DNA of 64,000 nucleotides, from contig NC_089732.1 of assembly GCF_035083965.1 (NCBI RefSeq), positions 16,843,424 to 16,907,423 on the forward strand, written 5' to 3'. Position numbers and translations under genes: made by a program. This document shows positions 1,148-58,000 of the stretch, one piece after another. The notes beneath the pieces were generated by a model. It worked only from the letters and a program-made list of their open reading frames with translations. It was not told the origin of the DNA and searched no databases. Position 1 is the stretch's first letter. Each line of letters starts with the position of its first letter. The DNA is from Branchiostoma lanceolatum (taxonomy: Eukaryota; Chordata; Leptocardii; Amphioxiformes; Branchiostomatidae).

Positions 1148-12688
<11,541 letters not shown>

Positions 12689-32200: not shown

Positions 32201-34799
32201 GGGAAAGATACATTTTATTCATAGAAACAGTCTCCGAATGACGGAAAAAAGTCACCATAATGTTCACCCCCTTTTTCTTTGTTACAGACGATTTCGATCA
32301 ACCTTCCCTCAACATTACACAGGGATCCTGAAGCACATCTGCACACCAACTGTGGGTAAGTCTAACGTTCCACTTAGACTTTGATCAAACTGGACATTCA
32401 GGTACATGGCTTTTGTGGCATTGTGAGAGAGCAACAGAGTGGGGGACAGTTTCGATATTCTGCCCCAGGCCTATACTGTACATACATGTACATGTAGCAT
32501 CTGTCACGACCAGTGGAATAATAGCTCTTCGGTGAGCTAAACTGGTTCGAGATCACTTTGACTTTCAAGCATTTTACCACGGTGACACTAACTTTCCCTC
32601 CGTCCTTTCCCCAGAATGGTACTGGAAGTGCCTGGTGCGACCCTGGGTGTTGAAGGTCCTGACGGTCATCCTGGCCGTCTTCTCCTTCGTGGTCATCTGG
32701 TCAGAGGTCACCTTCTTCAACAAGAAGCCAGTCCTGTCCCTGTTTGCCATCTTCATCAACGTTGCAGCCAAAAACTACGACTACTTTTACATTGAGGTGG
32801 GTGTTTCCTGTTACATGATTGTACAGTGATTAGAGGACAACCATTGTTATATGATGAATACTCAGTCTCTATAAAATATTGACTTACTGCTTTGTGTGTG
32901 TCTGTCTGTGTTTCTGGATATCTGTAGTCAGCATAACATAAAAGCCTGTAGAATGTATTATAATGACATTTGGTATGTGGGTAGCTGTTGGGAATACAAA
33001 GGTCAAGTTTGATTTTTGGCCCCCTGGTGTATGATCTTTGTACTGCAGCAAAGTTTTCAAGTTTTGGATATTTTGTCCTGGACATGCTGTGGTCTTGAAT
33101 TTTTTATAGCAGACATCTTTTGCTCAGTAGGGAAGAACTGGACTAGTTATGTGCTGACCATTTTAATCTCATACTATGGTTGAATATACATTGTACCAAC
33201 CCTCAATGTGTGCTTCAATGTGATTTCAAAGATAATAAAGTGTGTGCTTGCTCTTATATTGATATATTGATTGCTCTTAATATTTTCCAGCTGGCTAGCT
33301 GCTTGACGATCACGTACCTGTGCGTATGTGTGTACTTCACGGTGTTCAGAATCCGCATCTTCAACTACTACTACATCGCACCGTACCACCAGACTGACTC
33401 CAACAGCCTACTGTTCAGTGGCATGTATGTATCAGAATCTTTTGACTGATGTCAGTCAGTCTTATGAAAAATGTTATATAGTGGAGGTATGCCCCTGTAG
33501 CTCAACTAGCCTCACAGTTGAGCTCCTGGTTCCAATTAGTTGCTAACTGGAAGACCCTGGTTCAAATCCTGGGAAGGGCATCTTAGTCGATCGGTGCTGC
33601 ACCCGTCTTTCAGAAATTTGGAGACTCGACCATGTAAAAATATACCCTGCTACCCAAAAACCTTAGGAAACTTGCTGACCTATGTGCCACTAGGAACTAG
33701 AAGGTAATCAACAACAACAATCACTACTATGGCGGAGTTACTGTAATGTTGTTGACCAATTCTATAGCTCTTCATTAGAATTAGCCGTACAATCAAAAGA
33801 ATGGCTGCATGTCAATCAATTTTTTTACATATTTTTTCAAGTGTATTTCTTTGTGATATTTGGAACCCTGACACAGACTTAGCCCCCATTTTGACTTCCT
33901 GTTACTCTGTCCACAGTTTACTGTGCCGTCTAACTCCCCCCCTGTGTCTGAACTTCCTTGGTATGATCCACCTGGACAAACATGTGACAGGGAATGAGGA
34001 CCAAGAGATTGAGACAGCTTATACCTCGGTAAGGTTTGATATGAACTGTCAAATGGAAATATATTCTGCTGAAGATTATCTTGTAGTTATGACACTATTA
34101 ATTTTCATACATCTTGTCTTCAGGAACTGAAATTTAACCTTCTTGCTGTGTAACTATATAACCGAAAGGAAATAGGTTTCAAACGGCTACTTCAGAGTGC
34201 CATAGGTTAATTGATCAATGTTTATAACCTTACATCGCAGTACACATATCCTGTTCATAATAGATCACTATGAATGCAATAAAATGTACTAGTCTTCTTT
34301 GATGTATACCAGAACAAGGGCTCAAAATAACGGGCCATAATATGCACTTTTGTAGGCCCCAAATCAGAGCTATATTGCTATCACGAAAAAACAATCTTCT
34401 TTTTTCTCCGCCACAAAATTGCTAACTCCATTGCATTTACAATAGCATTTAACCCCCCCCCCCCCCCCCCCAATAGATCATGGGCCACATGGATGTCATC
34501 TCCTTCTTGTCTGATGGGTTCTACATCTACTACCCTATCCTGGTCATCGTTGTTGCCTTGGGAACATTCTTCAGCGTCGGCAACCGTTGCCTGGGACTCC
34601 TCGGCTTCCAGCAGTTCATCGGCGATGATGATATGACCTCTGACCTCATTGAGGAGGGCAAGGAGATGATAAAACGAGGTAAGTCTTCCAAAGTTTAACT
34701 GAAAACCTGAAAGCATTTTTCAAGGAGAAAAAGCCACAGTGACTTTTTATTTTATTTCAAATCATTACTCCCATGAGAAATATAGGCATAGTTTTTGGC

Positions 34800-34837
<38 letters not shown>

Positions 34838-37800
34838 ATGTGTGTGTGTAGCTGATGAAATATCTCAAGAAACTCTGGATGGATTGTGATAATATTTGGT
34901 ATGTGGGTAGATCTTCTGAAGGCAAAGGTCAAGATCAATTTTGAAACTCCTGGCGCCCGACCTAGGTACTGCAACAGGACTTCCGGTTTTCGTAGCTTTT
35001 GCCAGGGACTTGATTCATCTTGTTTTTTATGTACCAGTCCCTCTGATAGGTAGATACGTGAGGGTCAGAGACTATTAGCATATATACAACTTACAAGTCT
35101 AACTTTTAAGTTGTACTGTTTCTTAAGTATGTGTGTGTCACATTTAATAGAGGCGTGTCTGCATAGAGGTGCTCGTAAGCTTTATTTGATGATATATCTT
35201 ACATCTCCGTGTCCTTTATGTGTCTTTTCAGAAAAGAGAAAACGACAGAGAGTTGAAGATGGCGAAGCCAGAAGAAAGGTAGGGATGGATACATGTAGAT
35301 GAACCTAAGGGTTACCCTAAAGTAGTGCTAACTTCCCTGTGCTCTAATCATTTGGTAATATTACTACATTTGTAATATTATAGCAAGTGCAAGACATTAA
35401 TATGTTTTCACCATGTTGTTGATATTTGAAATTGCCTTTTTAATGTTATTTGCTGTACAGTTAAACCAATGGGCCGATCACATACATGTAGCCCCACCCA
35501 ACTTGGTCTAAACATAGATATGTAAAAGCAAAATATGAAAATGCAAATATTTGACTGCCATACAGCCATTGGTCGAGCTGATAATTGCCACGCTATCATT
35601 GGCTGAAGTGCTAATTGAGATGGACAGCCAGGATTGGTCCATTATCTTATGATAGGCAACTTGTGATCTGTATTTCCAGTCCTGGCGAGACCGTTACGGC
35701 ACCACGAAGGATCGTGCGAGCTCGTTGCAGAACCGCGATGCCAGCGACAGTGACTCAGGTAGAGGGAGTATGAAGTCAGGTGCTCTATATGGGAAAGGTA
35801 CTTGTCTCTCTGGAATGGTACAGTCAGGTCTTACACAGATGTTGTCTGTTGTATCAATCTCCCAGCATATTTTCCCACTATGCTACCATGTTTTCTGGTT
35901 TCCTTCTCAACTTTTGTTTCAAAGTTGTGTTTGACATTCAGTTACCTTTCCCATCTAGTTTACTTGTGCTTTTACTTTGTTTTCCGGTTCAAATTAAGTA
36001 AACATATTTTCTTTACCCCACTTCTTCCGTTTTGTACCGTTAAAAATGCCTATTTTTGAAAAATATTCTTTGAATTGTTTTGCAGTTATTCCAGACAGTC
36101 AATGAAGTATGTAACTATATTGCAGCTGAAAATGGCAGATATTGAATAATAGCTGTGTAATTGCAAATATATTGTGCTATTGCATAAACTTTGCATTAAT
36201 TTTGTGTTTGCATGCCCCGCTCCCATTCTGTGTGCGTATTGATTTATGCTCCCCTCCTTCCACACCAACAAATACATTCTCCACACTGTTCACATGAATG
36301 TGCCCCCCTCCCACAGACTGCTGTGCATGTGGGGCACAGGCTACTGATCAATATCTGTATTCAAGATAATGTAAAAATAGGCAAATTCAGGGTGTCATAA
36401 TCTTATCCGTGTAACATTCCAGGTTATATCAACTCACCCTGCATAGTAGTCCACTATGTCGATTGTCCTAAAAGTCCAATTTCAACAATTTCTGTATGGC
36501 GGAATATTGCGATGCTGCTGTATTGTTTTCTAAAGACGTCATCAAGTTAGGGACTAACCACTTCAAATAAGGTGTCCACGCAGGCCTTAAAAGATGGACC
36601 AAAATCTTTTTTTACTGACAATTATCAATATCTCATAAATCTAAGATTTCTCTTATAACATAAAAAGAAAAGGTTTTAGTCCTAGATAGGCAGGAACACC
36701 GTATGGCAGAAAAGTGGACCCTGGCACATGCCTATATTCGTACCCTTTGCCAGTTCTCATGTATACATGTGGCCTCCTCCACCATACTGTACAGTCGTTA
36801 ATGAATGTGCCCTCTTGAATGTGCCTTCATCCCTTCCACCAATCCAACTCCCTCCCTTCCTTCCTCCAGAATCCAGTCTGCTGCACAGAATCGCTTCCCA
36901 GCTAGGTAGAGTTTCTTTCTGTCCGACATTTGTTCTTCTTTAACATCTCACATTTTTCCACGCGTGCTGTTGTGTCTGCCAGTTGCAGTGCTTTGATCAC
37001 TCACTTTGTGTATTCAAGCCTTTCAGAGTTAAATGGTGATGTGAAAACTTTCCCCTATAACCAATAAGAATTTCCAGTATCTGTGTAGGGAATGCTCCTG
37101 TTGCCTTGTTCTGTTCCATTGTGATGTTCTCCTTCTGAATAACATTGTTTTATAACAGTTATCCTCTTTTTGCTGACTCTGTAGACTTGTTTAACAACTT
37201 TCCCTGTACATGTACATGCTGTGTTTCTGTAATATCGTTCATGTCTTGCATCTTCCACATCCTATTACCATGCTCATGGTACAGTGTAATGCCTCTTTCT
37301 GTTTGTTTTCACATTACTGAAAATGCAGAAATGTTTGCGGTGGTTTTATGTTCGCGGTTTTCGCAGTGAACACTTCAGCGCAAACTTAAAAGCACCACAA
37401 AACGTTTTGCCCATCTGCCTGACTAGCGCTACAATTGTTTCAAACTCAAACTTAAAACAACTGCGAACACTCCATCTTCTCCCTACCAAGAAATGAAAAC
37501 CACTCAAACTTAGATGCATTTACAGTATTTAGAAACAAGGGCATAGGATCTTATGGTGCTCCCATGATACAATCTTATAAGTTACTGGAATAGATAAAAT
37601 GTAGGCAAAAAAAGTGTGTTTGTAAAATGTCATCTTGCCCACCTACATATACACTCATGGCTTCTTCTTCACTGTTCTTATAATACCAAGCATGTAGAGT
37701 TTTACAGGCAGGTGGATTGCTTTTAAGGTGAGACAACATACATGTAACACAGGTGTGTGTCAGCTTGGCTGTTTGCAGATGTATTCATACGACACATACA

Positions 37801-39180: not shown

Positions 39181-41370
39181 TTCAAGTTAGTACAAATGGC
39201 TCTGAATACTGTAGCAGTAAGGCAGGAGCACTCCACCAGTACTCCTGGACCAGTAGTCTTGCTGGTGGATACGAAGTGCCAAGAGCGTTGATGGCTTTGT
39301 ATGTCCTGTAGTGATGGTTGCATATTTTCTTTCTCTTGAGTCAAACTAGAAGCTTGATGCATTAGGCATGGTCGTAGTTAGACATGTTTGCCTGCCTACA
39401 TGCCCAGGGATGTTTAGCAACAGGATTTCTTGTGAGAATTGTACATAAATATGCAAGAAAAAGTAAAGCCCCCGCGGGACGTTGGGAAGCTCGCTGCAAT
39501 TTGACAGAGCTCTCAACAGATTTCATCACTAAAAAGCGAATCTTTTGTTGTCTTTTTAGTCATACTTGCATGTTTTGCATTGTAAAGTCAGGAGTAACAC
39601 AAAGCCAGTTTAGGACGCAGCAAGGTCCAGTGAGATAGGGGCTTAGATTTGTTAGTGATACAATCGCACCTACCGGTACCAGTAGATCATTCCAACTCAC
39701 CTCAACCACAGTTTTAGGGAACAGGGTTAAGAACTAGGAGTGGTAGCTGCCTTTCTCAGTTTCTGCAAATTGAGATTCACTGTAGAAATGACGTACTATA
39801 AAGCAACATATCATAGTATCCAGATAAAGTCCAGTTTTTTACAGCTCTGTACATAAAAATGCAGCAAAAGGGAGCAGTTCTATATGATGTACTACATGTA
39901 GACATAAATGTGTCGAAAATAGAACATTTACATGGAGACTTAGGCTGTTAAGCCATTCAGGATCATTATAGGACTATCAATATCAATTATGAGAAACTGA
40001 TCTACATATTCTAATGACTAGATCATAACTAAAGCAGATGTACACAGAGGAACAGATAATTTGGTACATGTATACTGATGCTTGTGTAGGCCTGGAGCCT
40101 TCAGCCTGGGTAATGTTTTACTCAAAGTGTTGTTCCTTGACTCTATAACTAATAAGTTAACTCTGCTCTTGTACATACATATTCCACCCTGCATATTGTT
40201 CGTTTTTTTGTTATTTTACAGGCGTGCATTTGCAAAAGGTTTTATTTACAATGCAGAGATGTCGACTACTCAAGTTAAACCAACTTACAATGGTACATAG
40301 CAGTAAGAAATATGCTGTGTATACATTTGTGACCACTTTGCAATATGTGGAGGAAGCAGTTTTGCCTTATAATTCTTATTCTAAAAATCCTGAGGAGACA
40401 CTACCTCATGGTTATATGATATTAGATGTACAATAGAATTCCTTCTTCATTGGATTCAGTGCTACTTGTTGTCCTGCCAATGTATCTGAGGGTAATTCTA
40501 TCTGTTACGCATGTCTATGGTGAATTGTATATTGTAGCTTTAATCACCCTGACTACAATAGAAAAGCTTTCTGTCAATTACTTGTATACAAATATCCTGC
40601 TGGTTAATGAAATATTTGCTTTGCGGGAGGGGAATTGCTGGAGCAGGTGCTGAACTATTCATAAATGCCCCACACAGTATGATGTATGTCAGTCAAGGTA
40701 ACAGATGGTGTTTTCTATAATTAGAAAAAAAGTGTGCTACAGTGCTACCCTGTTAACTCAATTATACGCAACACCAGACAACAACTTTATAATTACACAC
40801 AAAAGGAACATTTGATTTTGACAATACTTGAATCTTGTTTTAGTATAGACCAGTGACTGGTGGCTTGAAGTTAGGAATTTTCTTAAGTTGATTTTGTTGT
40901 CATGTTTTCCATTCTGCAAAATCAGCTCCATATATGGGCAAAAATATCCCACTGTTATACTTGATAGAATACAATGAAATAAAAATTACAAATGATGTAA
41001 ATATCTTAGATAATGATGTAAGCAATGAATTGTTTTGCTTGCTCAAAGGTTGCAAAAAAAATGCCCTTAATATATTCTTAGGTCATGGTGAATTTTGCAC
41101 AGTATATGTACTGTGTTTGTGACAAATTATTGATATGTAATCAAATGTTCCATAATTAGCTTAGAATACTGTCCAGTAAATGCTTGTTTCTGTATGCTTG
41201 ATATTCCTAGGGTTGTGTATGTCATTCTGGCTATATGGTATTTGGAAAATAAGACCATGTTTCCTTCTTGCTTGTAAAAAGATTGTTCTCTGTCTCTCTT
41301 CTTCTATCAGTCATTGGTATTCAGCAGTGAGGTATATATCTGCAAAAGTAAACAAATACGACTTTGTCCG
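39014..41370 (+). other. LMBRD2 3' UTR and downstream sequence
   Basis: There is no coding similarity. The stretch from about 40080 to 41370 recurs in decayed form at 51230-52170, for example TAGCAGTAAGAAATATGCT at 40307 and AAAATAAGACCATGTTTCCT near 41247. AATAAA occurs near 40977. Confidence 0.55.
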
Positions 41371-41382
41371 TGAATAGTTTCA

Positions 41383-41730
41383 TCAGGTTAGTAAGTCACT
41401 GGATGACAAGGCCCTTAGTATACAACAGAGTGTTACAAGCCGACGTTTCGCTGATTGTCCGTCAGTTTTACACACATACATCTTGGTACGTTGATGACGG
41501 TTAGACATACAGGTAATAAGAAACGCCAAAATAGTTGCTGACGCAACTGGATAAGACTTTGAAACAGACGTTTCAGACAGCATCCGCTGTCTTTCGTCAG
41601 TGACTAAGGAAAGAAATGTAGAACCAGGTTTTATACTAAAACTCTGAATAGATATGTTAATGAGGTTAAGACAATTTAGGACGTCTCGACAAAGTCTCAA
41701 TAGAATAACTTGTATAGTATAGTCGTTGCT
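41383..41730 (-). mobile_element. Repeat with hammerhead-like core, possibly a retroelement end
   Basis: On the minus strand CTGACGA (41600-41594), a perfect 7-bp stem AGACAGC/GCTGTCT with a GGAT loop, then GAAAC (41574-41570) recall the hammerhead ribozyme core reported in Penelope-like elements. One extra A follows CTGACGA, so the fold is not canonical. The 185-codon open frame that crosses it on the minus strand has no recognised domain. It lies just beyond the 3' end of the discoidin-SAM gene. Confidence 0.4.
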
Positions 41731-41987
41731 CACGCTTCTAGCATTGTTTGCATGCGTATTTTTGCGGTGTTCCGGATGGAAATTCGGTAATAAAAAGCAG
41801 CGTTTTCTAATATTCATTGGTGTAATTCTAATACACTTGCTACCTCTTATAAATGGCGAATTATTTCGCAAAATTGCCCCCAGAATGTTTGTACCCTTTA
41901 CCATTGTGCCATTTTGTTTATTAATGCTACTATTTTGCATTCACATTACTCAAAAGAAGAATTAGAACATGTGTTTTGTTTGTTTTT

Positions 41988-44900
41988 TTAAATCACGATC
42001 GAAGAGACATAGAAAGAGAGGCAAACCGGGTTGTCCTTCAGCTCCTGCAGGGCCTTTTGTAGTTTTACCCTCGGTCCGATCTCAGGGATGAGCTCAGCGA
42101 GCACAGCGTCGTTCAGACACATGGCCGCGTCTCCATCTATCTTGTGTCCTGAAGATCAGTCATCAGAGAAAAAAAAGTATTAACAAAATTTTGCAAAGCA
42201 AAACATCTTTCCTAATGACAATCTTGCCGTCGAATCCGAACTGATATGGTTAAAGCAGTTGTAGCATCGCACCAAGTCCATTTTGCCTATTTAAGTTTGA
42301 AAAGGAAATACGGAGTAGAACTTTACTTACGCCTAAATGCTGCGGTGTACTGGCCACAACCCTTGGCCCTCAGCAAGTCCACCACGTCGTCCACAGTTAC
42401 AAGGTCTGCGATACTGAAAATGGCCTGTAATACAGTAAATCAAGACCTCGTGGACATTACTTGTATGATACACAAAGAGCTGGTTCCATGAAAAAATAAG
42501 ACACTCCCGAAAGATTACTGTCGTACTGAGGAAGTAACAGCCATTTAATAGATACAAACAGTACAATTGCAAGAAGGGAGTTGGGAAAAATCATAAAATG
42601 TTACCGTTTCATAATGTCTTTCTTCATACAATGTTGTACGCGCAGGATTCTCAGCTGATTCCATGCCGGAGGGAGTATCTGTTGTGACCATGTTGAGGTC
42701 CATCTGGTCACCAATGGGGTCATGTCGCTCTGTAGCGTTTCTCCTCCTTTAAGATATAATTGCTTGTAGCATTACTTGAAACATTCATTAAGCAGTACGA
42801 GGCCATAATATATGAACGTTTTCAATATTACTACAACAGCAATGAAAAACACAATTCAATATGGCATTCTTCTTCTAAAGCAGTTGTATCAATGAACTTC
42901 CTCCAAGTGACCACAGGTTTATTTGAAAGAATTTTAGTCCTTCGTAATGACATAGCAGTGAAATAATATTTTCTGTATACGTAAATAGAGATTCCACTTA
43001 CCTATAGCATATTATCCCTACTGTCACAAGAACGATCACAATCAGGGCAGCCACACTGCCACCAACGATTGGCACGATACTAACACTGGCGGGTGGGCCT
43101 AGAAAAGAAACCATCTTAGCAATGTATGTAATTTTCATAGGCTATACAAATTACATCATTGATATCAAAACCTATTGCATAAGAAAGGGGTCTTACAAAT
43201 TGATATTTCGTAGGTTTCTTCCCTGACAGCCGTTTCCAATGGAATGTTGTCTACCTGTACATTGAGAGAGAGTTAGATCAAAGGCAATGTGTTTTTTAAA
43301 AAGCACTTACCTTTGCTTATTGCCTCTGTGACTTGTATTGATGTGGATGCTACATTGGTTGGCGTGGTCGCTGACATATCTGGACTTGATGCCGTCGGAG
43401 GCAGTTGCCCGGAAGAAAATGTTGGTGGTATGTCTTTGGTCACGATCGGAGTTATAATAGGGGAGGTTGTTGTGTCGAGCGGAGTCGATGCCTGCGTGGT
43501 TGCCAGTGTGTCCAAGGGAGTCGCTGCAGCGGAGGTTGTCTGGATGAGTGGAGTTGTTGCCAATGTTGTTGTTGTATCGGGTGGAGTCGTTGCAGGGAAG
43601 GTTGTTGTGGTTAGGTCTGAAAGATGGCAGATAAAGTTCCGTTTCCTTTTAATACTGATAGAAGACTGGTTCTCAGTGTGAAGCAGATAGACATAGGCCT
43701 TACCATGATATAAACATTAAATGGGCCTGTCAAGACAGCAATCTGTACAGATGCCTTGCTGGTAGCAACGGAAGATACGTCTTCGTTTTTATTCTCTGTT
43801 AAGAAAGTACAATCTTAACACGTCCGACACTTTTTTAAATCACGGAAAGAATTTCAGCGCAATTCTTATTTCTTTCTTCGAAGTCTGTGCGGTACTTTCT
43901 TTCGTATTTTTTTTCGTATTTCCTACTTACCGTCCACTCCAAGTAACTCTATCCTCAGTCTGGGAGCGCCGACGAAACTTTGAGGGTTGATGAGGATATA
44001 CCGTGCGTAGATAATCGAGGTTAAGTTTTGTTGGACGATAGTTTCGTTGTCGCTGTTACCTGTGAAAATCTGAGGGAAAGATATTTGTGACTTGTCTAGC
44101 TGATTGCATGGGTGCAAAGGCCTAGTGGGTAGAGTGTTCGCCTTGCATACGGTAGGTTGTGAGTTCGAACCCCGGCCGGGTTATACCAAAGACTTTAAAA
44201 AAATGGTACATACTGCTTTCTCTGCTTAGCACTCAGCATTTGGCCCAAGGGCTACTGAAATGGAGATGGGCACCGACCTATGTACCATCGGTGCAGGAAG
44301 GAAACGCAAGATGTGGACTCAATTTTAATATAAAACCGCGAGTTTTCCTTATCAACGAGTTTCTTCTCTACATTATGACAACCTGCTTAAATGCCATCAT
44401 CATCATCATGTATGTAAATTCTGCTGTAGTTATGATGCGCTCCTTTTAAACAAAGAAGAAACGCATCATAAACATAAAATCATTGGGGGGAAAACTCTAG
44501 AATTCTAGCAGTTTTACAAATGGATGGAACTGATGAAACTTGATGCATCTACTCTCCGTTTGTATCAGTTTGCAGACAAGAAGAAGTTCTATTAGCATTG
44601 TGGTGAAAATTGGAAGAACGAGACAGAAGAAGATACGTTTATGAAGTTAACGTTTCGCAACACTAACCTTGGCGCTCCCACCATCTTCCGAATAGAGAAT
44701 TAGATTCGTTGTGTTGTCCCGCTGGTATATAATCCTGTAGCTGCCGACGTAGCCATCTCCCTGTCCCTGGGTCTGGATGGCAACAACGTAACGATCGTAC
44801 AATAGATCCACGGCCAGGAACTGGTCTGTACCTTGTGCTGACGGCTGCCATGCACCATCGCCGTTCAGGCGGCCCCTGTACGCCTCGGATCCGTCTAGTT

Positions 44901-47900
44901 GGGATGAAGCTACCATTTGATCATCTTGGATGATTGTATTATCCTGTACCCCAAAGGGCTGGTACAATCCAAATGACACTGTACTTTCTGTAGTACTTGT
45001 CATTATTGTTGTTGTTGTTGTTGTTGTTATTGGAGTCGATACCGGGGAGGTAGTCTGGATGAGTGGAGATGTTGCCAGGGTTGTTGTTGTGTCGGGTGGA
45101 TTCGTTGCAGGGAGTGTTGTTGTGGGCAGCTCTGAAATATGGCACATATGGTTCAGTTTCCTTCCAATACTTATGGGGAACTTGTTCTCAAGGTAAACAA
45201 GAGCTTTTAAAAAAAGCTGGCGTTTCGGCTACGTTTATAAGTGTGAATTGTCTTTTCCCTTTACTTGAAGTAAAATCTGCCAGAGGAAGTCACTCAAGGG
45301 CTGTTCAGTCTATAAGAAAAATTGTCATTTTGGGAAATGAGTACTGTTTTAATAGAGAAAGGCAGATTGGGGAAAGCAATTTTGAAGTTACGTCACTTAA
45401 CTTAAGTGCTTTTGAAAAAGCTGGTCTTGGCCTACAACTTGTACTTATTTGTAAAATGTATAATAGGCTCATTATAAAAGCTATCAATGTAATTATGTAC
45501 ATGGCACGCAATAAAACATAAAATTTGAAAAAGCACCATTGAATCATCAGCACTATGGTAATTAAGTGAAATAGAAGTTCATAACAGCTAAGGTTCTATC
45601 TAAAATGACTACCAAATGTCAAACAAATCAACAGCTACCTCATCCGTATTATTCTGGTTTCCGCATTTACAACATTTCTTCCTTATTTTCCTGGGTAATT
45701 TTGCTAAAATTCATGAAAATTCCCATAGTTTTGTGCCGAGAGGCGCCACTTTCCACGTCCGTGTTGTCTGAATGAAGTCGATACTGAACAATGGAGCATT
45801 TGCTACTGTAACAAAGAATCGCTGTTTTGCAAACAACATCAAGAGCCTCTGTTTACATCGGGGATAGAAGTTTAGTGGCGAGTGTTTTGCAAGAATCATC
45901 TTACCGCGCATAGGAGCCGCTGCACGGTATTTTCCATTACAATGAACAGAAAAATTCGAAAGCCGGGTTTGGAATCTATGAAGTCCTGTTCATAAGACAA
46001 AGGCCTTGTATATATAAAATGAATATTTAAAAATAACAAATATAAAATATTTCTTTATTTATTAATGAAAAAAAATGATATTCATAAATATGATATTGAT
46101 AGATTAATATAATATCAATATATATTTTTGATATTCAATATCTAAAAAGAAAAAAAAATCCATGCACGGAGACGAACCCGGATCTTCTGGGTCCGAAGTG
46201 CTTCGCGTTGCCAGATCGGCCAAGCTGCGGTACGTAACTATTCACACTGGACGTAATGCTATAACCTCACTATATGGTATCATTTATGCCGATTTTTGGT
46301 CGTTTTCTTGACGAAATCATTTTTTTTCTTCTGCAATCTTGTGGAATAGATGTAATATGGTCATTTTTCAGGATATCAAAGTCCGAAACCACAATGCAAT
46401 GATATTTCCGAACAGTTGTAGCAGTTACATGCGGTCGCCGTCCTGTGTCACATGCAAATCTAGCCTGCCTGCATTTTCGTGCTCTCTTGCCATATAAGGC
46501 AACGGCTATACAAGGATTTGAGAACGTATTGCCATATAAGGTCTTATTGTGTGCGACACAGTGTTGAACCAAGCTTCCCTGGTTCCTTCCTTGAAGCATG
46601 CTTGAAGGTAAAAGCCAGGACAATGCGTTCCGGCGCGCATGCGCCGAAACGCAAAAAAAAGCAGTGGAAGTTACCATAATTGATTATATAAGTTTATATC
46701 AACTTTAGTCGGCCTGTCCTGACAGCAATCTGTACAAAAGCCTTGCTAAAGGCAACGGAAGATACGTTCTCGTTTTATTTCTATGTAAGGAAATACCATC
46801 TTAATTTCTTCGAAGCCTAATGGACGTCCGTTTTTATATGAAAAAAAGTTCCATCGCAATTCTAATTTCATTGTTTTAAATCTGTCCGATATTTTATTTA
46901 TTTAGACTTTTTGGGGTATTTTCTACATACCGTCGACTCCAAGTAACTCCATCCTCACTCTTGGAGCGCCGACGAAACTTTGAGGGTTGATGAGGAAATA
47001 CCGTGCGTAGATGTACGAGGTGAAGTTTTGTTGGACGATAGTTTCATCATCGCTGTTACCTGAAATATCTGCAGAAGAGACAAAATACTTGTGACTTGTC
47101 TAGCGGATTCTGCAGGTACACTAAGTCTAGCATGTGGGCCAATTTCAAAAGAAAAGCTTGAACAGGTTTCCTTCTTTAACGAGTTTCTTCTCTACCAGTC
47201 ATGACAACCTGCTGAATTGCCCCCCATTGTTAGATGTATGTAAATTCGAAGAGACGTTTACAAACGTTTATAGCAACACTAACCTTGGCGCTTCCACCTT
47301 CCGAATAGATAATTAGATCCGTTGTGTTGTCCCTCTGGTATATAATCCTGTAGCTGTCGACGTAGCCATCTCCTTGTCCCTGGGTCTGGATTGCAACAAC
47401 GTAAACATTCTTCAGTAGATCCACGGCCAGGAACTGGTCTGTACCTTGTGCTGACGGCTGCCATGCACCATCGCCGTTCAGACGGCCCCTGTACGCCTCG
47501 GATCCGTCTAGTTGGGATGAAGTTACCATTTGATCATCTTGGATGATTGTATTATCCTGTACCCCAAAGGGCTGGTACAATCCAAATGACACTGTACTTT
47601 CCGTAGTGCTTGTCATTGTTGTTGTTGTTGTTATTGGAGTCGATACCGGGGAGGTAGTCTGGATGAGTGGAGTTGTTGCCAGGGTTGTTGTTGTGTCGGG
47701 TGGATTCGTTGCAGGGAAGGTTGTTGTGGGTTGGTCTGAAAGATGGAACACTTTGTTCAGTGTTGTTTCAATTTTGATGGAAACTGTTCCTCGGTGAATA
47801 ACATAGAACTATAATAAGTTACCGTTATGTGAACTTTGATTAGGATTGTCAAGACAGCAATCTTTATTATGCCTTGCTTATAGCAGCGAAATATAGTTTT

Positions 47901-49999
47901 TTTTTCTTTTTAAAGAAATCCTTTTTTTTCGCCATATCTATACATATATGGGTCCCTAACATACGTCAATTTTTTATATCAAAGAAATTGTAATCGCAAT
48001 TCATATTTAGTTGTCTAAAACCTGTTCAATACTTTCTTACGAACTTATGTCGTTCTCTCTACTTACCATCGCATCCGAGCAACTCTATCCTCAGTCTTGG
48101 AGCGCCAACGAAAGTTTGAGGGTTGACGAGGATATACCGTGCGTAGATGTACGGGGTGAAGTTTTGTTGGACGATAGTTTCGTTGTCGTTGTTACCTGTA
48201 AAGATCTGAGAAAATGTTTTTTTTTACCTATCTAGCTGATTGTGCGAATGCACTAGAGTGTTGAATGGTTTCAACACAAAAGCCTGAACAAGTTTCCTTT
48301 ATCGACGCGTTTCTTCTCTGGCAGAGATGATAACCTGCTTTAATACCACCCGTTGTTAGCTACGTGTGAATTCGTCTTTTTGAACAGTTAGTAACGCATA
48401 ATAAACACAGATAGTGGGAAATTAAAGTCTCCTCTATAATTCCAGTACGCATTGTATAAATGTATGGACCCTATTGATAACATCATGATGCATTTCCTGT
48501 TCCCTTTTTTGACAAGTAATACTATACCAGCATTGTGGTGAAACTTGGAAAAAACGAGACAGAAGAAGAAATGATTACAAACGGTAATGACAGCATTTAC
48601 CTTGGCGTCCCCTCCATTTTCCGAGTAGAAAATTAAAGCCGATGAGTTGTCCATCTGGTATCCAGTCCTGTAGGTGCTGACGTAGCCATCTCCCTGTCCC
48701 TGGGTCTGGATAGCAAAGATGTAACGGTTGTACAGTAGGTCCACGGCCAGGATGTCAAAACCTTGTCCTGTGCCCTGCCATGCACCATCGCCGTTCAGGC
48801 GGCCCCTGTACGACTCGGATCCGTTTAGCTGGGATGAAGCTGTCATCTGATCATCTTGGATGATTGTATCATTCTGTACCCCAATGGGTTGATAAAAGCA
48901 TGGTGATGTCGAAGTGGTATCATTCTGTGCGTCTAATGTAAGAAGTAAAAAAAAGTCCATATAATCATCAGGAAAAGAGAAATTAGATCAAACGGACTTC
49001 TGTACTTTCAAAGGGTTCTGTTGGTAAGGCAATTGGTAAGACCAGCATCGCTTAGTAATGCACTTGGAATTCAAAGAAGGAATCGATAGCTGTTTTTTTT
49101 TTCAAAGATAACAAGGTATTCCTTAAGTCACTTGGACACGACAAAGTATAAGGCCCCTGCAAAGTGAAAGCCTGCCGGCAAAGAATGTGTTAAATCCTAA
49201 ATTCTCTGCTTTACTGTATGTTTTTCTTTGATGATGTTTGCAGGCGTGGGCCTTTTCAGCATTAGGAGAACCGGTAGTATCTATAATACGGTGTAAATGC
49301 CGCGTTTATCAATGACAATGGGGTCTCCAGGGGGGGAACACGACACCGGCCTGTGTGCTCAGAATGACTGACAGGCCGTCAAGTTGCGTACCTGCTAATC
49401 GGCTGTCCGTGACGTTTTACCTGCAGGCGTTACCCCTGAATGGGACCGTCCGAGAATGGTGCCAGGTATGAAGCGGCACGGGTGTTTGTCCTGTTTACTA
49501 AAGGGTTTTGGAGAAGTAAATACTTGCCTCAGTCCGAAACGCCGTGTCCCAAGGTTCATTTCTTTCAGCAGCTATTTCTTACCTAGTCTCAATTTACCGA
49601 GCTTGCTATTCAGAGGAACTGGCCTGGGAGACACGCATGCTATTTGTATACATGAGTAATGAGTAAACTATGCTGTCTGTGTCTTGTGTCGCTAAAACTA
49701 TATGTCTCTATATTCAATCGAGGTTTGCTTCGTTCTTGATCTCTATCTCTGCTATCTAGACTTAGGTGGGATAGGAAGGAGATAACTAAATTTCGTATAA
49801 TCTATATAATTTGGAACACATGTACATGTGGCCATGTTCTTTTATGGCAAGGCCATTGAAATTAACATGAGCCTACACACGGAGTGAAAACTATAATAGT
49901 GCACCCACCTGTTACGGACGGTGTCAGGCCAACCAAAATGAAGACAATCCACAGCCAGCATGGCTCATGACGAGGCTGAGATTCCTGGGTGGAATTCAT
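41988..49999 (-). CDS. Type I membrane protein: signal peptide, 3 discoidin (F5/8C) domains, Thr-rich linkers, TM, SAM; frameshift in exon 5
   Basis: No named family recognised. Exons on the minus strand: 49999-49909, 48932-48601, 48205-48067, 47735-47284, 47068-46931, 45131-44668, 44069-43931, 43616-43311, 43098-43002, 42746-42605, 42424-42331, 42148-41988; about 851 aa. The start is the first Met after an in-frame TGA; the h-region WLWIVFILVGL ends exon 1. Each discoidin domain spans two exons: the first half carries ASSQL, GRLNGDGAW, AVDLL and IQTQGQGDGYV; the second half carries ETIVQQN, ARYILIN and RLRIELLG. Thr/Pro-rich mucin-like linkers precede domains 2 and 3 and the TM (exon 9). Cytoplasmic RRRNA and LYEERHYET lead to a SAM domain (VDDVVDLLRAKGCGQYTAAF, KIDGDAAM, IGPRVKLQKALQELK). 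Exon 5 is 138 nt where its sister exons are 139, which breaks the frame. It probably binds extracellular matrix or lipids and signals through SAM; this is inference. Confidence 0.85.
44108..44290 (+). mobile_element. tRNA-derived SINE in intron 6 of the discoidin-SAM gene
   Basis: GGCCTAGTGGGTAGAGTGTT (A-box) and GAGTTCGAACCCC (B-box) form a good Pol III head at 44118-44176, followed by an unrelated body ending near ACCATCGGTGCAGG. It does not match families A-C. Confidence 0.65.
46162..46232 (-). pseudogene. Degenerate tRNA-Arg(TCG)-like sequence
   Basis: On the minus strand CTTGGCCGATCTGG resembles a D-arm, CACTTCGGACCCAGAAGATC resembles the anticodon arm of tRNA-Arg with anticodon TCG, and GGGTTCGTCTCC is a B-box lacking the usual A58. 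A T-run follows directly on that strand, as a Pol III terminator would. Stems do not pair fully, so this is a tRNA pseudogene or SINE head. It lies in intron 5 of the discoidin-SAM gene. Confidence 0.4.
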
Positions 50000-50847
50000 G
50001 CCCAGTTTCTCTCCAACACATCCACACCTCCAACACGCAAAATGTCTACCTCCTCAGATGTCAGCAAACGTCTCTGAATCGGAAACTTTGTCTGAAGCAA
50101 CTTCCCTGTGACGTCATGAGGAAGACATGTCAGTTTTGTTTGTCCGTGCAACTAATGTTACCTAGCACTTGTATGCATGGCTAACATGTATTCTTCTAAT
50201 TGTTAACCTACTAGGGATGTGCCTTTCAGTCATTTCTAAATGAAAAGTGTAAATTAGGGAAGGTAACGCCTTGTATTTTGAATAACAGCATTAGGATAGT
50301 GAAATAAAGGTGAAATCGCATGATCCGACTTTACGCAGGATGTGTTATTCATCTCTTATTATAATCTTAATAGATTCAGACTACATTGAAAACTGTCAAA
50401 GGGTCTTAGCAAACATTGTCTCTTCAAATATTCCTCACCAACATGACACTAAATGTGTGGACAGGGTCGTGTGCAACCACGTCACTCCTTCATCGTATTT
50501 CAAGCTTTTACGTCTGTTTTGATCATACATGAATGGCTCTCCAACATATACAGAATCCCTTCCCGATTGCCTTTTAAAACTATATACATTAATGCACAAC
50601 ACTCATATCATACTTTCCCCTTCTGTCTCAGAATAAAGCTGAATAAAACAGTAACAGTACCTCGGCGACTGACTTTTGCGAAGGGGTTTGAATCGCATAT
50701 ACATGTAGTTAAAAGTGATATAACATTAGATATGTTTAAGATTTTTTAACGTCAATTGTTGCGGTCTAAGCAGATGTAGTGGGGAGGGTGGCGTAACTAA
50801 GTAGCCGACAAAAGGCTTCTAATAAGCACTGATCCTAACGTTGTAAT
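50000..50847. other. Intergenic, upstream of the discoidin-SAM gene
   Basis: It should contain the promoter and 5' UTR of the minus-strand discoidin-SAM gene. I see no coding similarity and no clear repeat. Confidence 0.4.
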
Positions 50848-50965
50848 CTCCAAGCAGATCTAACGTATCCAACCGGCAAAAGGAGTTTTCATAGCCACCC
50901 AAGGGTATGAAAACTCCTCCTGCCAGTTGGATACGGTCTTTGCAGCCGTTAGATCTGCTTTGAGG
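50848..50965. mobile_element. Foldback element of the CTCCAAGCAGAG family
   Basis: The left arm CTCCAAGCAGATCTAACG then TATCCAACCGGCAAAAGGAG is matched by the right arm CTCCTCCTGCCAGTTGGATA and CGTTAGATCTGCTTTGAG. The right arm has a 12-bp insertion between the two blocks. A stray ATCCAAGCAGAATC end lies at about 51077. Confidence 0.8.
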
Positions 50966-51229
50966 TTGGGGGGGGGGTATATTTCGCAGTGTTTTCATGA
51001 GACCCTGTTGCTTCAGGCTTCTCCAACGATATATGAATCCAGCCACGTCCTTTCACTTCAAAGGCTTCTGTAATATCCAAGCAGAATCTTGTCTGTAGAT
51101 ACTTCAATCAAGCATGAATCAGTGCAGTGTTTGCCGTGTGTTCTGCATGAAGTGTTGCTAACTGTTCCTCAACCCAGTGTTTACATCACGTCCGTTCCTT
51201 TTACTGTGATACTGAATTGCCAACTTGTT

Positions 51230-52170
51230 GACGCCTTTAGCCTTTAGCCCAAATAAGTACACCAGTCTACCGTATATATCTGGTTCGTTGACTCTGTTTA
51301 TTGCTGTTTTTGTACACACATATATTCCACCCTGCTTATCATCATCATTCTTTTAGTTTATCTACTCTTCAGCCATAAAAAGTTTTATCTTCAATACAAA
51401 TACGTTGAATATTCAAGATTTAATATAACTATTTCTGGCTGTAGAGCTACTAAGTAACGCATGATATTAGAACACTAACAACCAATTATCATACATGTGC
51501 ATAGCAGTAAGAAATATGCTATGCATATAATTTGTCTACTTTGGAAGGTGCAGGTGAAGCAGTGCCAGATTTGTGTGGTATTTTTTTGTTGTTTTTCTGA
51601 ATTGTGCTGTTTTAGCTGTAGACCAGCACCTATGGTCACTCACCGTGATGATTTGAAGTCAGGATTTTTCTTCAGTTGTTGTTTGACATGTTTTCAGTTG
51701 TGCAAGGTCAACTTTATAGATTGATATAAGATATATACACTCTGTATGCACTAGCACTATTTGCTCTATTCTTGGTTTAATTAACGGAAAATTATAAAAG
51801 ATGTTAATACTTATGTTAAATAATAATGCAATGATTTTTTTGCAATTAATAGTCCTTGATTGTCATATTTCTAGGGTAGATTGCGGCTTGTACAACATGT
51901 TTGGGGGAAAATCTGAATGTGTAATCTTAGTAATGAAGTGTTCAGTAATGTATAGAGGTCGAGTAGAACGAATTTCCGTATGCTTGATATTCCTTCGGTT
52001 AAATAAGTACTAGTAATACTGGCTATGTGTTATCTAGAAAATGAGACCATGTTTCCTTCTTGGCAGACGGAGTCGATCGTGTCTGTCTCTCTCTTTCTAT
52101 CAGTGGTTTCCTACTTCAGCAGTGAGGCATACGTCTGCAATAGTAAACAAATAGAACCTTGAGTCCCACG
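51230..52170 (+). repeat. Decayed copy of the LMBRD2 3' UTR
   Basis: Blocks match 40080-41370 in the same order and orientation: TATTCCACCCTGC, CATAGCAGTAAGAAATATGC (51498), GACCAGCACCTATGG with GAAGTCAGGATTTTTCTT, TATGCTTGATATTCCT, GAGACCATGTTTCCTTCTTG and CAGCAGTGAGGCATA. The copy is shorter and diverged, and no LMBRD2 coding exon accompanies it. Confidence 0.75.
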
Positions 52171-52391
52171 TTCAAGACACTCAGTGATCACAACCAACCT
52201 AGCCTGGGAATCTATTAACCATGCAGTGACACTATAATTCTGGGTAGAGTGTTATTCCAGAAAATTTATCGAAGTTGACTGGCCAGCTATCTAGTACTTG
52301 GTTTGGCTGCGCGTAATGGTTAGGGTAACCTCGAAGAGAAATTAGAGATAGATAAGATGAAAAAATCTAGTGCATCGATATGAAAGGTTAC

Positions 52392-55026
52392 CTTGTAGTC
52401 TTGAATGGTCCGATCTAGGGTTGCCTTAAGCTGCGGGAAAATTGGCCTGTTCTCAGGCAGCGTTTCCCAGCAGGTCTTCATCACATCGTAACTGGGTACG
52501 GAATAGTTGCATCAAGAAAAAAATTGTTAAGTAAAGTTCTACCATAGTCAGGGTGACAGTGTATAAGTCATCTATGCGTATCTCTATGTCGGTGACCAAC
52601 TCTGAATACTTATCTAAGGGAAGAATGAATTACAAAATCGCTTGTTGCATAAAAAAACAGATTCTTAAGTTGAATACAAGACTGCCAACGTACACATTCT
52701 GCGGACACAGGGCAGGTTTCTCCAGCCTGTAGCCGTCTGGCAACAGTTTCATGAGCTCTTTGCCTGTCATCCGGCCGTACGGCTTTTTACCTGGAACATC
52801 AAGTAGTAGTAGGCTTTTGAAGATTTATAACAAAATAACTATAAATCATATAGCACATTAACAGCAAAAAAACATCTCTGGTCATACAACAAAGACTTGA
52901 AGGCAGGTTATTAAATCACAGAATGATATATATCACAGACCAGCAGCTGAAATTGTTGAATAAGTTATTAAGAAATGCAATATCATATTTTTCTTAATGA
53001 TGTGAGATATTCTGACGGAGTAAATTATACCAAGTACATGTTTCAATTGATCCTCTTTTAGAACCAAACTTTACATATGTCACTGATCTTTGTACAGCTC
53101 TTACCCATTGTCATGATCTCCCACAAAAGGATTCCAAAGGACCATCTGAAACATGCAAAATGCACCTACTGTTACACGTACATGTACACCTATAGTATAA
53201 TTGAACGTAACACACATACAGACCTATCTAATGGCTGGTCTTTCAAATATTAACTAGATACAAATGTCTAAAGCGGTCATACGATTATACAAAATAATAC
53301 CTACACATCACTCTGTGTGGTGTACACGTGGTAGAAAAGGGACTCGTATGCGATCCAACGGATCGGAAGCTGGCTCTAAAAAGGGAACAACGTAAAAGAA
53401 GATTATTCAAACAAAACACAAAAGATGATAGACCTTTGCAATTGAATCATATCTAAATAACCACAGCTTCACCCTATACTGTTCAAAATGTAATTAGTTT
53501 TGGAGCATTGTGAAATTAAGAATATGTACCTTTGTACTTTTGACATACTCAGGCTGCTCGTAGATATCACGTGACAAACCAAAGTCTGAGATCTTGGCCG
53601 TCAGGTCCGATCCAAGGAGCACATTCCTGGCGGCAAGGTCACGGTGGACACACTGGATGTATGGAAGAATGATAACAGTAATTTATTTATGCGTGACAGA
53701 AAGCAGGAAACGTTGACAACGTGAAATTTCAGGAATCATGTTCATTATCCATAAAGACTAAAAGGAGTCCTAAACTCCAGAAGGCGGTGTTATTTTCCAC
53801 TAGATTATGTATCAATTAATGCATAATCAGCCGACTTTTTACAGAATTCTGCTTGTGGAAAATTTTACAAGGTGTTTTTTTTTTAATATGATACTCACTA
53901 AACCCATGCAGACCCTACCTAGCCTCTACCAGGCTCCGCCGGATGGCTGGAAAAATAGTAGAAATTGGCCGTAATAGAGTGAATAGTGTGCCAAGGGAGT
54001 TAGCTACGGAGGGAGTACATTCTGCCATCGATATGCCGTGTCCCGACAGGCTCCGTCGATGGCAGAATGTACTCCCTCCGTAGCTAACTCCCTTGGCACA
54101 CTATTCACTCTATTACGGCCAATTTCTACTATTTTTCCAGCCATCCGGCGGAGCCTGGTAGAGGCTAGACCCTACCCATGTATTCCCTATGTGTAAACAT
54201 ACACAACTAATCGTGGATATTTTCGGCATGAATGAGAATGGCTAAGCACGATAAGAAGGCCAATTATTAACAAGATATAAAAGAACACATAGTAAGACGA
54301 GTTTTTCTTAACCTCCATGACATTCTTTTTGTAATCTAACTTTTGTCAGGCCTTGTCAGGCACATTGTATTAGGCCATAGGCTGAGGTTGTTTAATTTAA
54401 TCCATCAGAAAATGAGGGTCACCTGGGGAATTCGGTAGAATACTGAATGCCTTTTGATGCACATTGGACTAGTGGGTACTTTATCGCATACTGAAATTAT
54501 CATCCATTGGAAAATAACTCCCCCCATGGAGTTTAGGACTCCTTTAAAAGCTACAATTTTATGGTAATGTATATATTTTTTTTTAAATCAAAATGACGCG
54601 CTCCCTGTTTGGTGCTTTGTATCACAGTTGGCTATTGCAATAGAGCTTATCGTAGTTCCCACCTTTTCCACACTTAACATTACCTGTATGAGACTTAATA
54701 ATTTCCATAATCCCTTGTGATCACAACCGTGACTTGAACTTTGGAAACAGCTATAACTGCAGTAGATAAAACCATCCTCAGATCCCAATGTATCTATATA
54801 TATATCAATACATGAACTTGTCATTGACTGTGTTTCTACAAAATGTAGTGCATGGTAAGGAATTTGGAATCAAAACCAACAACTTACAGCCCTTTTACAA
54901 ACTTTACGAAAAGTGTTTTGTGTACCTGCATGGCAGCCAGATGACTCATCCCGTTCGTGATGTCTATACCAAACATTATGAGTTGGTCCATCGGTAGCTG
55001 AATCCCGGAGGTGGCGATGAGTTTGT
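52392..55026 (-). CDS. Receptor-type tyrosine kinase, C-lobe only (partial; 5' exons beyond the window)
   Basis: Six exons on the minus strand: 55026-54926, 53652-53530, 53375-53305, 53145-53105, 52790-52694, 52491-52392 (177 codons, phases join). The order is helix E ([16 protein letters not shown]), catalytic loop [17 protein letters not shown] at the activation loop start, tyrosines in [35 protein letters not shown], then [12 protein letters not shown]. The HRD, DFG and APE-equivalent motifs are intact, and HRDLAARN marks a tyrosine kinase. By eye it is nearest the Tie/FGFR-like receptor kinases. The N-lobe and any ectodomain must lie right of 64000, behind at least 9 kb of satellite. The last exon ends AAG|GTAACC. 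Without splicing, 23 more codons follow before a stop; a splice to a small tail exon is also possible, so the C-terminus is uncertain. Confidence 0.88.
53919..54167. mobile_element. Perfect foldback MITE, ~112-bp arms, 8-bp target duplication GACCCTAC
   Basis: The left arm 53919-54031 starts CTAGCCTCTACCAGGCTCCG; the right arm 54056-54167 is its inverse with no mismatch that I can see. The loop is 24 nt. GACCCTAC occurs at 53911-53918 and 54168-54175. The 8-bp duplication would fit hAT or a similar superfamily. It lies in an intron of the kinase gene. Confidence 0.9.
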
Positions 55027-55029
55027 CTA

Positions 55030-58000
55030 GGGCACTTGGCGGGTATTTGAGGAAATGAAATCACTTTACTTTCTCATTCATGGTTAGGGAGTAATAGCTG
55101 ACCAAAGTTACGCCCCCCACTCCATACTTATAAAGCATTATAGACCAATTCAGTGCTCCGGTCTGAAATTCAACCTCTTTATCAGAATGTTCAAACTTTA
55201 CATTGAAATGATAGGGCACTTGGCGGGTATTTGAGGAAATAAAATCACTTTACTTTCTCATTCATGGTTAGGGAGTAATAGCTGACCAAAATTACGCCCC
55301 CCACCCCATACTTATAAAGCATTATAGACCAATTCAGTGCTCCGGTCTAAAATTCAATCTCTTTATCAGAATGTTCAGACTTTACATTCAAACGATGTGG
55401 CACTTGGCAGGTATTTGAGGAAATGAAATCACTTTACTTTCTCATTCATGGTTATGGAGTAATAGCTGACCAAAGTTACGCCCGCACCCCATACTTATAA
55501 AGCATTATAGACCAATTCAGTGCTCCGGTCTAAAATTCAATCTCTTTATCAGAATGTTCAAACTTAACATTCAAACGATAGGGCACTTGGCAGGTATTTT
55601 AGGAAATGAAATCACTTTACTTTCTCATTCATGGTTAGGGAGTAATTGCTGACCAAAGTTACGCCCCCCACCCCATACTTATAAAGCATTATAGACCAAT
55701 TCAGTGCTCCGGTCTAAAATTCAATCTCTTTATCAGAATGTTCAAACTTTACATTCAAACGATAGGGCACTTGGCAGGTATTTGAGGAAATGAAATCACT
55801 TTACTTTCTCATTCATGGTTAGGGAGTATGGCTGACCAAAGTTACGCCCCCCCACCCCATACTTATAAAGCATTATAGACCAATTCAGTGCTCCAGTCTA
55901 AAATTCAATCTCTTTATCAGAATGTTTAAAATTTACATTGCAATGATAGGGCACTTCGCGGGTATTTGAGGAAATGAAATCACTTTACTTTCTTCTTCAT
56001 GGTTAGGGAGTAATAGCTGACCAAAGTTACGCCCCCCACCCCATACCTATAAAGCATTATAGACCAATTCAGTGCTCCGGTCTAAAATTCAATCTCTTTA
56101 TCAGAATGTTCAAACTTTACATTGAAATGATAGGGCACTTGGTGGGCATTTGAGGAAATGAAATCACTTTACTTTCTCATTCATGGTTAGGGAGTAATAG
56201 CTGACCAAAGTTACGCCCCCACCCCATACTTATAAAGCATCATAGACCAATTCAGTGCTCCGGTCTAAAATTCAATCTCTTTATCAGAATGTTCAAACTT
56301 TACATTAAAACGATAGGGCACTTGGCGGGCATTTGAGGAAATGAAATCACTTTACTTTCTCCTTCATGGTTATGGAGTAATTGCCGACCAAAGTTACGCC
56401 CCCCACCCCATACTTATAAAGCATTATAGACCAATTCAGTGCTCCGGTCTAAAATTTAATCTCTTTATCAGAATGTCCATCCTTTATATTCAAACAATAG
56501 GGCACTTGGCGGGCATTTGAGGAAATGAAATCACTTTACTTTCTCATTCATGGTTAGGGAGTAATTGCTGACCAAAGTTACGCCCCCAACCCCATACTTA
56601 TAAAGCATTATAGACCAAGTAAGTGCTCCGGTCTAAAATTTAATCTCTTTAGCAGAATGTTCAAATTGTACATTCAAACGATAGGGCACTTGGCAGGTAT
56701 TTGAGGAAATGAAATCACTTTACTTTCTCATTCATGGTTAGGGAGTAATTGCTGACCAAAGTTACGCCCCCCACCCCATACTTATAAACCATTATAGACC
56801 AATTCAGTGCTCCGGTCTAAAATTCAATCTCTTTATCAGAATGTTCAAACTTTACATTCAAACGATAGGGAACTTGGCAAGCATTTGAGGAAATGAAATC
56901 ACTTTACTTTTTCATTCATGGTTAAGAAGTAATAGCGGACCATAGTTACGCCCCCCGCCCCATACTTATAAAGCATTATAGACCAATTCAGTGCTCCGGT
57001 CTAAAATTCAATCTCTTTATCAGAATGTTCAAACTTAACATTCAGACGATAGGGCACTTGGCGGGTATTTCAGAAAATGAAATCACTTTACTTTCTCATT
57101 CATGGTTAGGGAATAATAGCTGACCAAAGTTACGCCCCCCACCCCATACTTATAAAGCATTATAAACATATTCAGTGCTCCGGTCTAAAATTCAATCTCT
57201 TTATCAGAATGTTCAAACTTTACATTCAAACGATAGGGGAATTGGCGGGCATTTGAGGAAATGAAATCACTTCACTTTCTCATTCATTGTTAGGAAGTAA
57301 TAGCCGACCAAAGTTACGTCCCCCACACTATACTTATAAAGCATCATAGACCAATTCAGTGCTCCGGTCTAAAATTCAATCTCTTTATCAGAATGTTCAA
57401 ACTTTACATTGAAATGATAGGGCACTTGGCGGGCATTTGAGGAAATGAAATCACTTTACTTTCTTATTCATGGTTAGGGAGTAATAGCTGACCAAAGTTA
57501 CGCCCCCACCCCATACTTATAAAGCATTATAGACCAATTCAGTGCTCCGGTTTAAAATTCAATCTCTTTATCAGAATGTTCATCCTTTATATTCAAACGA
57601 TAGGGCACTTGGCAGGTATTTGTCAATGAGGAAATGAAATCACTTTACTTTCTCATTCATGGTTAGGGAGTAATAGCTGACCAAAGTTACGGCCCCCACC
57701 CCATACTTATAAAGCATTATAGACCAATTGAGTGCTCCGGTCTAAAATTCAATCTCTTTATCAGAATGTTCAAACTTAACATTCAAACGATAGGGCACTT
57801 GGCGGGCATTTGAGGAAATGAAATCACTTTACTTTCTCATTCATGGTTAGGAAGTAATAGCCGACCAAAGTTACGCCCCTCACCCCATACTTATAAATCA
57901 TTATAGACCAATTCAGTGCTCCGGTCTAAAATTCAATCTCTTTATCAGAATGTTCAAACTTTACATTCAAACGATAGGGCACTTGGCGGCCATTTGAGGA

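Follow-up and report, generated by a model that had tools for sequence, protein, structure and literature searches.

We analysed a window of 64,000 nt from Branchiostoma lanceolatum, the whole stretch between positions 16,843,424 and 16,907,423 of contig NC_089732.1, and numbered it from its first letter. On its minus strand, between 49999 and 41988, the DNA supports a gene for a kinase-less, single-pass transmembrane receptor with an F5/8C ectodomain and a C-terminal SAM domain. The reading we prefer, held with rather better than even confidence, is that the locus encodes a cell-surface receptor which would combine clustering F5/8C heads with a SAM module and act in adhesion or as a co-receptor. 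The domains are all known. Their order would be new relative to the open-licence literature searched (titles and starts of abstracts): none of the papers listed there appeared to describe it, in agreement with an earlier sequence-only reading of this DNA, which had found no named family to match the architecture.

Rebuilding the gene from its splice sites gave twelve exons, all on the minus strand, with the ATG at 49999 and the stop codon ending at 41988; at the level of sequence, this bears out the single gene previously proposed for 41988..49999. Exon 1 (49909..49999) carries the start codon and the signal peptide. F5/8C domain 1, identified by the splice model, Pfam and PDB searches, has its front in exon 2 (48601..48932) and its back in exon 3 (48067..48205), each with a Cys. 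Exon 4 (47284..47735, its end moving to 47298 with an alternative donor) encodes a Thr-rich linker and the front of domain 2, whose back lies in exon 5 (46931..47068, its start moving to 47087 with an alternative acceptor). Exon 6 (44668..45131) encodes a second Thr-rich linker and the front of domain 3, completed by exon 7 (43931..44069). Then follow a Thr/Ser/Pro-rich stalk in exon 8 (43311..43616), the transmembrane helix in exon 9 (43002..43098), the juxtamembrane piece in exon 10 (42605..42746) and the SAM domain, the first part of which is in exon 11 (42331..42424) and the second in exon 12 (41988..42148), together with a tail ending SSIVI and the stop. An AATAAA is found at 41917..41922, 66 bases past the stop. 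In the gene models used, 11/11 introns are bounded by GT...AG, their lengths with the consensus exon 5 being 976, 395, 331, 215, 1799, 598, 314, 212, 255, 180 and 182 nt. Exon phases are compatible with these sites throughout, the junction of exons 4 and 5 excepted; exon 10 ends and exon 11 starts in phase 0. Two models were carried forward, one of 654 residues in which exons 4 and 5 are skipped and one of 846 residues using the alternative exon 4 donor.

Two intronic stretches of this gene, 44104-44190 and 46158-46240, look tRNA-like by eye, the first with a box-B-like GTTCGAACCCC, and are possibly tRNA-derived short interspersed elements. ARAGORN (bacterial setting) reported no tRNA, and a search of the window for structured RNAs and tRNAs gave nothing at gathering score.

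Profile searches of the translation matched both the F5/8C and the SAM family above the Pfam cut-offs. With the 654-residue model, F5_F8_type_C (PF00754) was found in two stretches (9.8e-29) and SAM_1 at 1.1e-7; the SAM piece alone reached 3.4e-9, in line with the C-terminal SAM domain recognised earlier. The middle F5/8C unit, searched alone, gave 8.2e-14 with the alternative acceptor and 3.7e-15 with the alternative donor. The proposed signal peptide and single transmembrane helix correspond to the two best hydrophobic windows of the 846-residue model (residues 14-32, Kyte-Doolittle 1.61, and exon 9, 2.72). Threonine makes up 43% and 43% of the mucin-like linkers and 30% of the stalk. The stalk is tied to the F5/8C heads by homology between the beginning of exon 8 and the linkers in exons 4 and 6. 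Unit 1 has a Cys pair at the expected disulphide position; the pair is missing in units 2 and 3. The cytoplasmic part of the 846-residue model comprises 132 residues with four Tyr, two of them within LYEERHYET, the juxtamembrane motif noted before and present in exon 10. Scores against ErbB and Eph transmembrane models stayed under the curated cut-offs, and no kinship of the transmembrane and juxtamembrane part was drawn from them. NCBIfam gave no match to the ectodomain piece. The absence of an enzyme was likewise borne out: Pfam, applied to the gene model at E up to 0.1, recognised neither an ephrin-binding domain nor fn3 nor a kinase, and a scan of 39800-43001 in all three frames of the minus strand (E up to 1) yielded no kinase either.

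Three F5/8C domains had been announced from the letters alone. Three units are indeed encoded; in the middle one the homologous splice sites do not keep the frame. Exon 4 ends in phase 0, as do exons 2 and 6, and the consensus exon 5 measures 138 nt against 139 nt for exon 7. Because exon 5 is one base shorter, the homologous junction loses the frame, and we rejected a splice between exons 4 and 5 that uses the counterparts of the unit 1 and unit 3 sites. The frame is kept in three other ways: by pairing the normal acceptor with the alternative donor AAG|GTGGAA at 47298 (score 4.6 versus 7.8 for the homologous donor), by the alternative acceptor at 47087, which keeps domain 2 in frame and has a poor pyrimidine tract, or by skipping both exons to give 654 residues. 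The protein would then carry two or three F5/8C domains, depending on this splicing.

That the homologous exon 4/5 sites do not preserve the frame could also mark unit 2, and with it the whole gene, as decaying. We regard such a pseudogene as very unlikely: in-frame splice alternatives exist, the remaining exons are open, and in the pair formed by units 2 and 3 the proportion of amino-acid-changing differences (pN, 0.047) is lower than that of synonymous ones (pS, 0.112; Fisher p 0.009). Synonymous change exceeded amino-acid change in 3/3 unit pairs, the values being pS 0.277 and pN 0.156 for units 1-3 (Fisher p 0.004) and pS 0.275 and pN 0.171 for units 1-2 (Fisher p 0.024). Duplication of the units took along parts of introns.

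The architecture had been pictured as the front of a discoidin domain receptor (DDR) joined to the back of an Eph receptor. The nearest relatives do not support this hybrid origin, and we rejected it. When the PDB was searched with a profile built from units 1 and 3 (best 60 of 66 matches), factor V/VIII came top, followed by neuropilins and lactadherin; retinoschisin, discoidin-2 and CASPR2 likewise ranked above DDR1, which was 60th. Single-domain scores also matter because chains with two C domains gain by summing both. With domain 3 alone, lactadherin scored 57.9 bits and neuropilin-2 stood above DDR1; the one reserve on the rejection is that DDR1 (42.7 bits) and some single factor V/VIII domains (42.5 to 45 bits) score about equally. 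The word 'discoidin' is correct here solely in the wide F5/8C sense. As for the other end, with a limit of E 10 the SAM piece matched 29 different sequences in the PDB (25/29 at E up to 1), a few of which are non-SAM proteins. The top matches were Sfmbt (1.9e-4), BicC1, Shank2, Polyhomeotic-like 3 and Ph, then ANKS and Scm proteins, and none of the 29 was the SAM of an Eph receptor.

With DDR1 and DDR2 the predicted protein has in common an F5/8C ectodomain, a single transmembrane helix and juxtamembrane tyrosines. In contrast to them, it has no kinase that we could find, it has a SAM domain, and its two or three F5/8C domains, carried on mucin-like linkers, are closer in score to those of lactadherin, neuropilin and factor V/VIII. 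With Eph receptors it has in common a single transmembrane helix, juxtamembrane tyrosines and a C-terminal SAM, and its final I-V-I presumably resembles a class II PDZ ligand, as in Eph receptors; unlike theirs, its SAM is nearest to those of Sfmbt, BicC1, Shank and Ph, and the ephrin-binding, fn3 and kinase domains are not matched. The nearest F5/8C sequences in the PDB are those of neuropilins, lactadherin and the factor V/VIII C domains, whereas Pfam matched no CUB, MAM or EGF domain in the gene model. Neuropilins are kinase-less co-receptors. Neither they nor lactadherin nor factor V/VIII are known to have a SAM tail.

In the mechanism that we propose, the F5/8C heads would bind a ligand on a surface or in the matrix (sugar, collagen or lipid) and ligand binding would cluster the receptor. 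The SAM domain would then hold the cluster or recruit a partner with a SAM of its own, and phosphorylation of the juxtamembrane tyrosines, in trans, would fall to a separate kinase. SAM domains of Shank, BicC1 and Ph polymerise, and signalling via SAM assembly is plausible because several of the best-matching SAMs do so. The receptor could thus act as an adhesion molecule or co-receptor, perhaps alongside a receptor tyrosine kinase (RTK) encoded next door, to which the origin of the gene is probably linked: the terminal exon and 3′ untranslated region (3′UTR) of the RTK recur directly behind it.

Several points weigh against this interpretation. The SAM matches in the PDB are modest (best E 1.9e-4), the likeness to polymerising SAMs is one of sequence, and we infer polymerisation, ligand and phosphorylation. 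The joining of exon 8 to exons 9-12 is predicted from sites and phases, and exon 10 is weak on both sides (acceptor AAG, donor score 4.6). The exon 4/5 break may reflect a damaged allele or a sequence error, the frame being lost when the homologous sites are used. By part, dN/dS between units runs from 0.28 to 0.60, and values of about 0.6 in some pairs, which gene conversion may distort, indicate weak constraint. Finally, gene models of lancelets are reportedly prone to error, which according to PMC4967905 often accounts for odd architectures in these animals; PMC6485061, PMC6071037 and PMC8662651 served as further background.

The RTK lies upstream of the SAM receptor gene, on the same strand. 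Its kinase C-lobe is encoded by five in-frame exons on the minus strand (53652-53530, 53375-53305, 53145-53105, 52790-52694 and 52491-52392) and matches PF07714 at 1.3e-55 over profile positions 123-258 of 258. A pseudogene was suspected from the raw translation and dropped because the five exons join in frame. The APE motif reads AYE (exon 53375-53305), which does not condemn the RTK because an EGFR chain in the PDB match has ALE there. Among the best 60 of 733 PDB matches, the nearest per domain were Tie2, FGFR3 and Ret (165-173 bits), an EGFR chain topping the list only because it contains two kinase copies (119.5 bits each). NCBIfam matched the kinase piece to bacterial kinases only, far under their cut-offs. 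Pfam matched neither an N-lobe nor an ectodomain on the minus strand up to 64000, and no SAM in 50000-54199. The two adjacent, same-strand genes have in common a homologous terminal exon and 3′UTR and differ in that the RTK has a kinase and no SAM match. Amphioxus tyrosine kinases were reportedly studied by D'Aniello et al. in 2008. The sequence-only reading had found the receptor gene and treated it singly, omitting the exon 4/5 break, the adjoining RTK and the recurrence of its terminal exon.

The terminal exon and 3′UTR of the RTK occupy 51304..52161 on the minus strand, the exon starting at 52134 and reading TYASLLK-stop. Their counterpart, 40163..41366 on the same strand, is colinear with them in the same orientation (41366-40163 versus 52161-51304), with three pieces of 63-78% identity and a best E of 1.2e-37. 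At 0.65 kb past the SAM exons it offers a second terminal exon, which has an acceptor, an open tail (41307..41339, IYTSLLNTND-stop) that is phase-compatible with exon 10, and an AATAAA. In both copies the homology begins 20-27 bases before the exon, the acceptor being TTTGTTTACT[T/A]TTGCAG, and an AATAAA follows each (40246 and 51302). Over the 550 bases aligned, the 40-column window from -20 to +20 of the exon start has 35/40 matches versus a mean of 24.7 and is joint best, tied with a UTR window near 41270. Acceptor-like sites, by a criterion of 8/12 pyrimidines, occur about once per 157 bases here; the acceptor at 41340 meets it and the RTK's own, with 7/12, just misses. The acceptor alone is weak evidence because such sites are common and the RTK's own just misses. 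The case for a duplicated exon rests, in our view, on the frame, on the AATAAA and on the position, which corresponds in the two places; we take the block to be a duplicate of the RTK terminal exon.

The block could also be a mobile element or some other repeat, in which case it would hold no signal of ancestry and the gene would be an ordinary exon-shuffled receptor. Identity of 63-78% between two same-strand copies in the window and a nearby reverse transcriptase are consistent with this. We nevertheless find it unlikely, given that in both copies an AG acceptor follows the 5′ edge of homology by 20-27 bases, that the exon has 7-10 open codons in the frame set by phase-0 donors, that an AATAAA stands near the far end of both, and that the block ends show no inverted repeats.

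If the block is duplicated, it follows that the gene descends from an RTK copy, occupies the former site of one or shares an alternative tail with the RTK. It may be a tandem RTK relative without its former kinase exons, or a gene with two alternative tails. The probabilities that we attach to the alternatives overlap and need not sum to one. Splicing of exon 10, in phase 0, to the acceptor at 41340 would give HYET-IYTSLLNTND-stop, and this 10-residue tail from the exon at 41339 might belong to the main product, the SAM form being minor. The joint best conservation of the exon-edge window and the AATAAA at 40246 favour such an arrangement, which we judge distinctly unlikely: the SAM exons have above-cut-off profile scores, matching phases and an AATAAA of their own, the UTR window near 41270 is conserved equally, and the splice from exon 10 to 41339 is a predicted one. 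Alternatively, the RTK itself might have two last exons, at 52134 and 41339, with the discoidin gene in between. Its fifth kinase exon (exon E) has a phase-0 end, and the two terminal exons are likewise open in phase 0; however, the transcript would have to cross its own poly(A) signals and an entire same-strand gene, and with tandem duplication being simpler we hold this to be highly improbable.

A more far-reaching history, which we put forward tentatively as possible and on balance doubtful, is that the gene was once an RTK with an F5/8C ectodomain. After tandem duplication its kinase exons would have been lost and two phase-matching SAM exons would have taken their place, the old terminal exon being kept as an alternative tail. 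SAM-tailed and short-tailed receptors might then both act on the sister that has the kinase, either assembling with it or serving as a decoy. Remnants of the kinase speak against descent by such a loss by not being there: tblastn with the C-lobe gave no match better than E 20 in 40000-50000, and Pfam gave none in 39800-43001. Nor was the RTK ectodomain found in the window.

A 184-bp satellite (92% match) and reverse-transcriptase sequence lie in the space upstream of the RTK C-lobe, the satellite in arrays at 55028-59871 (26.3 copies) and 61721-63197 (8.0 copies) and RVT_1-like stretches at 60101-61724, between the arrays, and 63426-64000. The open frame 63426-63998 resembles, by eye, part of the 60101-61009 frame. 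WHIM1 matches in the satellite region were disregarded, no stretch passing. A palindrome at 53919-54168 has 113-nt arms, 100% complementary and 24 nt apart, and an inverted repeat at 50845-50967 (72% over 104 columns) lies between the RTK 3′UTR and exon 1 of the receptor gene. Copies in inverted orientation at 30510-30643 and 41494-41619 (73.5%) perhaps represent a short mobile element. Elsewhere the window contains genes for a histone deacetylase (7900-10950, minus strand), a CR6_interact (GADD45GIP1-like) protein (14463-14870, plus strand) and an LMBR1-like membrane protein (31300-36100, plus strand).

A receptor exterior with an assembly module replacing the enzyme would offer a natural way to test if clustering is enough for signalling. 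Should the RTK exon that recurs here indeed mean that a kinase receptor gave rise to this gene, the locus would record the passage from a receptor with a kinase to one that lacks it, and would hold sister, relic and replacement within about 14 kb.

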